Position numbers and translations under genes: made by a program. Source: a virus. From it: DNA of 41,475 bases. The DNA lies in the IMG/VR virus record IMGVR_UViG_3300031565_006436, positions 1-41,475 of that record, one strand, 5' to 3'. This document shows positions 4,186-5,339 of this stretch, one piece after another (the stretch's first letter is position 1; each line of letters opens with the position of its first letter). Under the pieces are notes generated by a model, which was given only the letters and a program-made list of their open reading frames with translations, had not been told where the DNA came from and did no database searches.

Positions 4186-4662
4186 ATGGACGATCTTATT
4201 GTAGAAATTTCCGCTAACATACAAGTATATTTAAATCGAAAAGTTGTTAATTTCGGCATTGTTCCTGGCAAAATGGGAAAAATATTTTTATTGAATTTAT
4301 TAGATAAAATAGATATGCCGGAAGAATTCTGTGAGTTGACTGGTTTTCGTCGTTTAAAAAGTGATGAATTAGACAATTTACAAAATATCAGTGATGCAAA
4401 AGGTACTTTAAGAGAAGTTATGATTGTATCAAAGAGAATTGTACCTATTTTATTTACATTGGCTTGTAATAAACCTTTATTATGGGTTTGTAGTATGAAT
4501 CATGCTTTATGGGCAGAAAAATTTCTCGGCAAAAGATATAATTTCAAAATAATAAGAGGTTCTATGTCTGGGAATGATAAATATCCTCCACTTGAATTGG
4601 ACTGGGAAGATACTGGTGGTTCAAAAGACGAGCATATTGTGATAATAAAAAATAAAAAATAG
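4186..4662 (+). CDS. hypothetical protein
   Basis: 158 residues; AAGGA five bases before the ATG. Mixed alpha/beta composition, with a hydrophobic core stretch RIVPILFTLACNKPLLWVCS at about residues 85-104. The C-terminal part is acidic then basic (LELDWEDTGG...IIKNKK). No catalytic motif recognised. It stands between a strong terminator and the promoter of the structured RNA, so it must use a promoter that I cannot see clearly or read-through. Function unknown. Confidence 0.7.
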   Translation: MDDLIVEISANIQVYLNRKVVNFGIVPGKMGKIFLLNLLDKIDMPEEFCELTGFRRLKSDELDNLQNISDAKGTLREVMIVSKRIVPILFTLACNKPLLWVCSMNHALWAEKFLGKRYNFKIIRGSMSGNDKYPPLELDWEDTGGSKDEHIVIIKNKK

Positions 4663-4682: not shown

Positions 4683-4691
4683 TGCTATAAT
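4683..4691 (+). promoter_or_regulatory. extended -10 promoter of the structured RNA
   Basis: TGCTATAAT is a perfect extended -10 element. Initiation is expected at about 4698-4700, exactly at the first GGAACG block of the structured RNA. Confidence 0.7.
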
Positions 4692-4698
4692 GTAGTAA

Positions 4699-4905
4699 AG
4701 GAACGGGACCATGTATATAGAACAATACATCTCATTCATCTATACCAAGGGAATCGTTCCTTTTCGACTTACATAAGTCGATTCTGGAACGACTCCCAAG
4801 AAAAAGAATCTTTGGGTCTTGTTCCTGACGGAGGACTGTAACTCCTTTATCCATTATAATAGTTGTCAGGTGGCCGGATAACTGGTTCGATTCCAGCGAG
4901 ACCCA
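4699..4905 (+). ncRNA. structured RNA of about 205 nt with alternative helices
   Basis: Non-coding stretch directly downstream of an extended -10 promoter. AAAGGAACG (4697-4705) can pair with CGTTCCTTT (4755-4763). Alternatively TCGTTCC (4754-4760) pairs with GGAACGA (4786-4792) as part of a long rod 4749-4797: GGGA/TCCC, 7 bp, then TCGACTT-ACAT-AAGTCGA. GGAAC (4786-4790) can also pair with GTTCC (4821-4825). The pairings exclude one another. The 3' end is the tRNA-like element 4814-4905, which stops 15 bases before the next ATG. It matches no class I know. It could be a tRNA precursor with a 5' leader, a regulatory leader of the downstream gene, or a decoy RNA. Confidence 0.5.
4814..4905 (+). 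tRNA. tRNA-like element, possibly non-canonical tRNA-Tyr (GTA)
   Basis: Acceptor GGGTCTT (4814-4820) pairs with GAGACCC (4898-4904), discriminator A4905. T arm CTGG-TTCGATT-CCAG (4882-4896) is textbook apart from an A-C mismatch at its base. GAGGA-CTGTAAC-TCCTT (4831-4847) gives anticodon GTA. However only 10 bases lie between acceptor and anticodon stem, so a normal D arm is absent. The variable region is about 33 bases and contains TTATCC/GGATAA. CCTGAC (4824-4829) could pair with GTCAGG (4865-4870). It is either a decayed tRNA or a tRNA mimic; charging is doubtful. Confidence 0.4.
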
Positions 4906-4919
4906 GTGAAGGAAAAATA

Positions 4920-5339
4920 ATGCAAACTTTTTTACCCTATCCCGATTTTGAAAAGACAGCAAGAACTTTGGATTATAGACGTTTAGGAAAAGAACGAGTT
5001 GAAGCTAAACAAATATTAAATGCTATTCAAAGTGAAAACAATGGATGGAGACATCATCCAATTGTAAAAATGTGGAATGGGTATGATAACGCATTAATGT
5101 TATATTTTAATGTTATTTCGACAGAATGGACTAGAAGAGGATATAAACACAATATGGGGTTTTTTAATATTCCTCATAAAAATCATATTCAGATGCCTTT
5201 TTGGATGGGGTATGAACCTTTTCATCTATCTCATCAATCTAATTTATTGCGAAAAAATTATGATTATTATGCGAAATATTTTGGGAACATATCGAAAGAT
5301 TTGCCTTATTTATGGAACAAAAATGGCATATGGACATGA
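4920..5339 (+). CDS. MSMEG_6728-family protein (endonuclease V / pyrimidine-dimer glycosylase-like)
   Basis: 139 residues from ATG 4920, with GAAGG at 4908-4912; upstream in-frame codons lie inside the tRNA-like element. The start MQTFLPYPDFEKTARTLDYR, then RLGKERVEAKQIL and HHPIVKMWNGY, is characteristic of the MSMEG_6728 family, which is related to the pyrimidine-dimer excision family typified by phage T4 DenV. In that family the N-terminal residues and a conserved Arg/Glu act at damaged bases; here a DNA-repair role is inferred from similarity only. It directly follows the structured RNA and may be controlled by it. Confidence 0.65.
   Translation: MQTFLPYPDFEKTARTLDYRRLGKERVEAKQILNAIQSENNGWRHHPIVKMWNGYDNALMLYFNVISTEWTRRGYKHNMGFFNIPHKNHIQMPFWMGYEPFHLSHQSNLLRKNYDYYAKYFGNISKDLPYLWNKNGIWT

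Follow-up and report, generated by a model that had tools for sequence, protein, structure and literature searches.

A predicted phage tRNA-Tyr(GUA) with a D/variable-arm pseudoknot and its relatives in viral tRNA arrays

The locus and its conserved leader

The window, i.e. the complete stretch of 41,475 bases analysed here, corresponds to the IMG/VR record IMGVR_UViG_3300031565_006436 and harbours phage genes including those of a terminase and a ribonucleotide reductase. Its comparison with isolated phages by blastn yielded no match, and a terminase-based search revealed no relatives of the window among viral contigs and about 24% identity to isolated phages. ARAGORN calls three tRNAs in the window, every one of them a serine tRNA. 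In the gap between gene A and the Pyr_excise gene, an extended -10 element is followed by a leader of 117 nt, which contains a rod hairpin, and by an RNA whose end is separated from the ATG of the Pyr_excise gene by 14 nt:

4186-4662: gene A, upstream of promoter, leader and RNA
4683-4691, + strand: extended -10 element TGCTATAAT, putative promoter with a weak -35
4697-4813, + strand: leader of the tRNA, 5' end AAAGGAAC conserved, fold z -4.6
4711-4776, + strand: candidate Tyr-rich mini-ORF MYIEQYISFIYTKGIVPFRLT behind AAAGGA
4749-4797, + strand: 49-nt rod hairpin within the leader, -25.6 kcal/mol, z -6.4
4814-4905, + strand: predicted pseudoknotted tRNA-Tyr(GUA), G1 to A73, CCA not encoded
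4920-5339: Pyr_excise gene, downstream of the RNA

The nearest relative is IMGVR_UViG_3300009529_000013, in which promoter, leader and RNA are 77% identical over 228 nt (E 2e-40); the leader was found in these two phages only. The extended -10, to which an earlier note on this DNA had drawn attention, is present and unchanged in the relative (AAATTGTAAAAAGGTGCTATAATGTA). It is absent from the output of a consensus promoter scan of the region, and a terminator scan of the region gave no terminator-like site. The rod hairpin described in the same note could be reproduced as well and is kept in the relative (z -6.6), the inner stems of the two differing by one compensatory change and one change from G-C to G-U. 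That it serves as a processing hairpin is a guess. Within viral array loci many members of the family described below are preceded by a short inter-tRNA hairpin, e.g. CACATTCGAAAGAGTGTG, which is possibly a processing signal. The relative harbours a counterpart of the mini-ORF at the same place which begins with GTG (VIRNYTSSYVYTKGIVPF); the mini-ORF stays putative because its conserved residues coincide with the rod. The assumption that the GGAAC/GTTCC blocks of this region pair in three exclusive ways had to be abandoned, as the helix between block 1 and block 4, which comprises 11 of 11 pairs in the window, retains 7 of 11 in the relative. The fourth GTTCC block belongs to the conserved G8-TT-CC core of the tRNA family itself.

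In the relative the unit of promoter and RNA follows the same gene A, while the Pyr_excise gene is not its neighbour. This gene is located 1.2 kb further along, with other sequence in between, and is preceded by promoter-like sequence of its own, without the RNA. Since RNA and gene thus occur apart from each other in the relative, we regard the RNA as an independent unit and not as the leader of the Pyr_excise gene; the linkage between both which an attenuator would need is not borne out by the synteny. We would also mention a tRNA-Leu(TAG) of the relative (L002, 6950-7069) ahead of which an apparent broken 5' tRNA piece is present.

Fold and covariation of the RNA at 4814-4905

The elements of the predicted fold are the following:

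4814-4821, + strand: acceptor 5' strand GGGTCTTG, forming 8 bp with CGAGACCC at 4897-4904
4824-4829, + strand: D strand CCTGAC, pairing with GTCAGG at 4865-4870 within the variable-arm loop (pseudoknot helix)
4831-4847, + strand: anticodon arm GAGGA CTGTAAC TCCTT, anticodon GTA at 4838-4840
4848-4880, + strand: variable arm, stem TATCC (4848-4852) / GGATA (4876-4880), loop containing the partner of the D strand
4871-4873, + strand: TGG in the variable-arm loop, proposed substitute for G18G19 of a D loop
4882-4896, + strand: T arm CTGG TTCGATT CCAG with a 4-bp stem
4897-4905, + strand: acceptor 3' strand and discriminator A73

Acceptor and anticodon stem are only 9 nt apart, too few for a D hairpin. 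Rather, the D strand leads directly into the anticodon stem and is paired inside the loop of the long variable arm, creating a D/variable-arm pseudoknot whose helix probably stacks on the anticodon stem in the manner of a D stem. The GG just 3' of this helix probably takes the role of G18G19 by docking on the T loop, and the 12-bp acceptor/T branch is divided into 8 + 4, the 8-bp acceptor being combined with a 4-bp T stem throughout the family. The window member encodes no CCA, lacks a normal U8 and is solitary: it lies outside any array and is preceded by a conserved leader of about 117 nt. The tRNA-like 3' end recognised in the earlier note, with acceptor and T loop present and the D arm absent, is real, and the first and last base assigned to it (4814 and 4905) are exactly the boundaries of the covariance-model match reported below. 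What that note overlooked is the normal anticodon arm of a tRNA-Tyr(GUA) and the pairing of the D strand with the variable loop.

The family was approached from a comparison by eye of the window with its relative, in which compensatory changes are seen in the acceptor, the anticodon arm, the variable arm and the helix between D strand and variable loop. A motif pattern search of viral contigs then yielded at least 120 matching stretches, 104 of which were kept for counts. The distance from the acceptor start to the anticodon loop amounts to exactly 22 nt in 101 of these 104, a perfect 8-bp acceptor is present in 96, A73 in 102 and an encoded CCA in 88. The invariance of CTGTAA, GGTGG and the T loop is no evidence as the first search pattern imposed them. 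With a pattern free of the anticodon 32 true members were obtained, all 32 of which carry GTA. A descriptor leaving both the anticodon triplet and GGTGG free gave 173 matches in the collected loci, all Tyr or Arg, and no match in shuffled and reversed sequence totalling 8.4 Mb.

Altogether, about 100 distinct relatives from viral contigs and bacterial genomes display strong covariation in all helices. In an alignment of 69 diverse viral and bacterial members 95.1% of cells are paired and the covariation score is 0.694, compared to 0.186 +/- 0.010 for shuffles and 0.075-0.142 for slid partners; removal of the window and its nearest relative leaves this result unchanged. Over these 69 sequences, paired cells amount to 98.9% in the acceptor (double changes in 8/8 pairs), 98.3% in the pseudoknot helix (changes on both sides in 4/6 pairs), 99.4% in the anticodon arm (double changes in 5/5 pairs) and 93.8% in the T stem. 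The variable-arm stem shows double changes in 3/4 pairs and is 78% paired, a value lowered by MAFFT misregistering some rows. Compensatory changes, whose lack in related phages had been named beforehand as the outcome that would speak against a structured RNA, are thus abundant. From the alignment we infer that both pseudoknot helices coexist in one molecule. A covariance model (R2) built from 67 sequences, the window and its nearest relative being left out, assigns 74.6 bits (E 4e-21) to the window and 69.1 bits to the relative. Among the loci searched, members score between 70.9 and 92.3 bits, and the next match of any kind reaches 29.5 bits.

The impression that the RNA fits no known class is shared by the standard tools, as neither Rfam nor ARAGORN recognises it. 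At E<=10 a search of the region against Rfam, from which the fold is absent, returned chance miRNA models only, and ARAGORN, run with introns and in mitochondrial mode, proposed no sensible tRNA at this position. In none of the 104 pattern matches does ARAGORN call the pseudoknotted tRNA-Tyr, and the Rfam tRNA model RF00005, applied to five array loci, found 127 tRNAs but missed the pseudoknotted one in each. A cloverleaf with a D hairpin is not what is found here. As standard tRNA finders miss them, almost all pseudoknotted tRNAs are unannotated in GenBank.

Array context, carriers and the arginine version

At 79 of 86 distinct viral loci another tRNA is found within 3 kb, and at 63 of them there are at least five (median 11). 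Among the 879 neighbouring tRNAs only four are tRNA-Tyr; hence, the pseudoknotted RNA fills the tyrosine slot of the arrays. In the genome collection sixteen genomes or MAGs contain at least one strong copy, often within tRNA arrays. One of these copies, on a Lacipirellula chromosome, is surrounded by 22 tRNAs, none of which is a tRNA-Tyr. A canonical tRNA-Tyr pattern is also matched in 12 of the 16 carriers, three of these matches possibly being other tRNAs, which indicates that the pseudoknotted tRNA is accessory. Together with its presence in 5 of 149 Planctomycetota sampled, this led us to reject the idea of a native tRNA-Tyr of Planctomycetes. Three alphaproteobacterial MAG contigs (L135, L177 and L185) carry the tyrosine version with unusually long variable regions and without any neighbouring tRNA called by ARAGORN. 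A Thermoplasmata archaeon MAG bin contains two model matches (71.9 and 63.9 bits), one of which (L146) adjoins four tRNAs; they could derive from a virus contig in the bin.

In isolated phages the tyrosine version occurs, unannotated and adjoining a tRNA-Pro, in Pseudomonas phages SCYZ1 and Lyrsu01-03. A search via Nitrincola phage 1M3-16 led to an arginine version of the same fold with the anticodon UCU (once CCU). It is represented by about 359 isolated-phage records, which are blast matches not each inspected, stem mostly from closely related Vibrio isolates and include, at least as the weakest match (phi-pp2), a canonical tRNA-Tyr. Vibrio accounts for 318 and Acinetobacter for 33 records, further ones being from Aeromonas, Escherichia Av-05 and Salmonella Arash. 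Judged from sequence, hundreds of phage genomes share the design in a tyrosine or an arginine version. In Aeromonas phage AhSzw-1 (L263, 510-685) a CCU and a UCU pseudoknotted tRNA-Arg are arranged in tandem, both unannotated. Generally, the arginine versions are unannotated or concealed under small hypothetical ORFs and, in those examined, missed by ARAGORN. The hypothetical proteins annotated over tRNA-Arg at L271 591-680, L272 588-680 and L268 578-679 are probably false ORFs.

The R2 score was discarded as sole proof of an arginine version because the canonical tRNA-Tyr of phage phi-pp2 reaches 35.3 bits with this model; the claim is therefore based on covariation among the arginine versions themselves. 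For 14 of these, 96-97% of cells are paired in each pseudoknot helix, and compensatory changes are present. The base 3' of the conserved GG is A in 14/14 arginine versions compared to 9/68 tyrosine versions. As the main arginine determinant is A20 following G18G19 (PMC9976931), the GG-bearing variable loop probably acts as a D loop that has been moved across to the opposite side of the helix.

Proposed function, rival readings and known tRNA folds

Measured against published tRNA-Tyr identity rules (PMC9976931), the family combines a GUA anticodon in a 5-bp/7-nt arm with a long variable arm and with A73 (69/69) and G1-C72 (68/69), the latter two not imposed by the search. In 30 records checked no TyrRS gene is present, so that we rejected the notion of phages supplying their own TyrRS; the host TyrRS must consequently accept the fold. 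We consider it very probable, on comparative grounds, that 4814-4905 represents an elongator tRNA-Tyr(GUA) of the phage which works during infection and whose fold is new and rewired in its topology. Transcription would start at its own promoter and include the leader; after RNase P trimming and CCA addition, the host TyrRS would charge the tRNA, which would then decode tyrosine codons in translation during infection. According to PMC13096335 and PMC11555353, PtuAB of Septu and retron-Eco7 cleaves tRNA-Tyr in the variable loop and so destroys it; the tRNA-Tyr of phage T5 is resistant through a distinctive variable loop. By analogy, the remodelled variable arm may resist PtuAB, and a T5-like escape readily suggests itself for a variable loop tied into a pseudoknot. 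Nuclease evasion alone, however, leaves the arginine version unexplained. The wider proposal of an undescribed structural class of tRNA, serving at least two amino acids in many phages and mobile arrays and kept for immunity to variable-loop nucleases, is put forward tentatively and is, taken as a whole, rather doubtful.

One rival opposes only the nuclease-evasion step of this explanation. It regards the RNA as a working pseudoknotted tRNA whose fold results from drift or is a relic, the arrays being spread by recombination, and comes close to an even chance. The scattering of members over viral arrays and over a small number of bacterial genomes, such as the few Planctomycetota mentioned above, agrees with it, but two isotypes have retained the fold, as have phage families that differ widely, and tRNA-Tyr with its variable loop is a known target of defence (PMC11555353, PMC13096335). 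A tRNA-Tyr pseudogene, decayed by loss of its D arm, would account for the failure of tRNA tools to call the RNA; its probability is practically nil, as it is refuted by a fold common to the whole family, 95% of cells paired and massive compensatory change.

The two functions proposed in the earlier note are further rivals. A tRNA-like decoy or regulator binding TyrRS or a host nuclease while being inactive in translation would suit the missing D hairpin and, in the window, the RNA's own promoter and conserved structured leader, and allo-tRNA-like RNAs of unclear translational role do exist (PMC7609411). It is improbable, though, given the full anticodon arm with its covarying stem, the CCA encoded in most pattern matches, the occupation of the tyrosine slot and identity elements which match the isotype in tyrosine and arginine versions alike. 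An attenuator or riboswitch-like leader of the Pyr_excise gene, to which the short distance between RNA and ATG as well as the stable rod and the Tyr-rich mini-ORF might point, is more improbable still: RNA and gene occur independently in the relative, no terminator-like site was detected in the region and the key switching helix is not conserved. Both proposals are left unsupported by the synteny of the relative and the membership of relatives in tRNA arrays.

If the predicted tRNA-Tyr reading is correct, a widespread class with a re-threaded D strand implies that another topology may be tolerable for bacterial synthetases and ribosomes as well as for modification enzymes, and that phage tRNA inventories are systematically undercounted. 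The changed region is the one in which Septu and retron-Eco7 cut tRNA-Tyr, whereby the question why phages encode tRNAs becomes directly testable, and with members in isolated phages the class is open to study now.

To our knowledge, few tRNAs outside animal mitochondria depart from the cloverleaf with a D hairpin. Canonical bacterial tRNA-Tyr (class II) shares with the phage RNA the GUA anticodon arm, G1-C72, A73, the long variable arm and the T loop, but possesses a D hairpin and a 7/5 branch, whereas the phage RNA is 8/4, places its D strand in the variable loop and is invisible to ARAGORN and RF00005. The tRNA-like structure of Brome mosaic virus has a pseudoknot in its acceptor. It likewise confers tyrosine identity on a non-cloverleaf RNA, but it is the 3' end of a plant RNA virus with C1-G72 (PMC9976931), in contrast to the ordinary acceptor helix with G1-C72 of the phage RNA. 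Mitochondrial tRNA-Ser also lacks the D hairpin; there, a connector replaces the D arm, and a pseudoknot involving a long variable arm is absent (PMC7609411). The tRNA-Tyr of phages T5 and SP15, studied in connection with retron-Eco7 and Septu, resembles the present one in its distinctive variable loop and strong promoter, but is taken as an ordinary tRNA-Tyr, the available text of PMC11555353 and PMC13096335 reporting no pseudoknot. In the main text of the open-access papers searched, we found no description of a D-armless or pseudoknotted phage tRNA.

Branches of 8/4 and 9/3 type are known from selC* tRNA-Cys and the allo-tRNAs (Mukai 2017, reviewed in PMC7609411), which have the 12-bp acceptor/T branch divided as 8+4 and the long variable arm in common with the phage RNA. 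They differ from it by a described D arm and by other isotypes (PMC7609411); 8/4 tRNAs and allo-tRNAs combine a D arm with serine or cysteine identity, and the phage RNA has no D hairpin and A73 together with GUA. Its nature as a tRNA and the 8/4 branch are thus the known part, while the D/variable-arm pseudoknot, of which the 2020 review of non-canonical tRNAs (PMC7609411) describes no example, is the new one. Among the serine tRNAs of the window, tRNA-Ser(GCT) at 1050-1135 looks 8/4 too, with an 8-bp acceptor and a 4-bp T stem (GTAG/CTAC), and the remaining two are 7/5 serine tRNAs.
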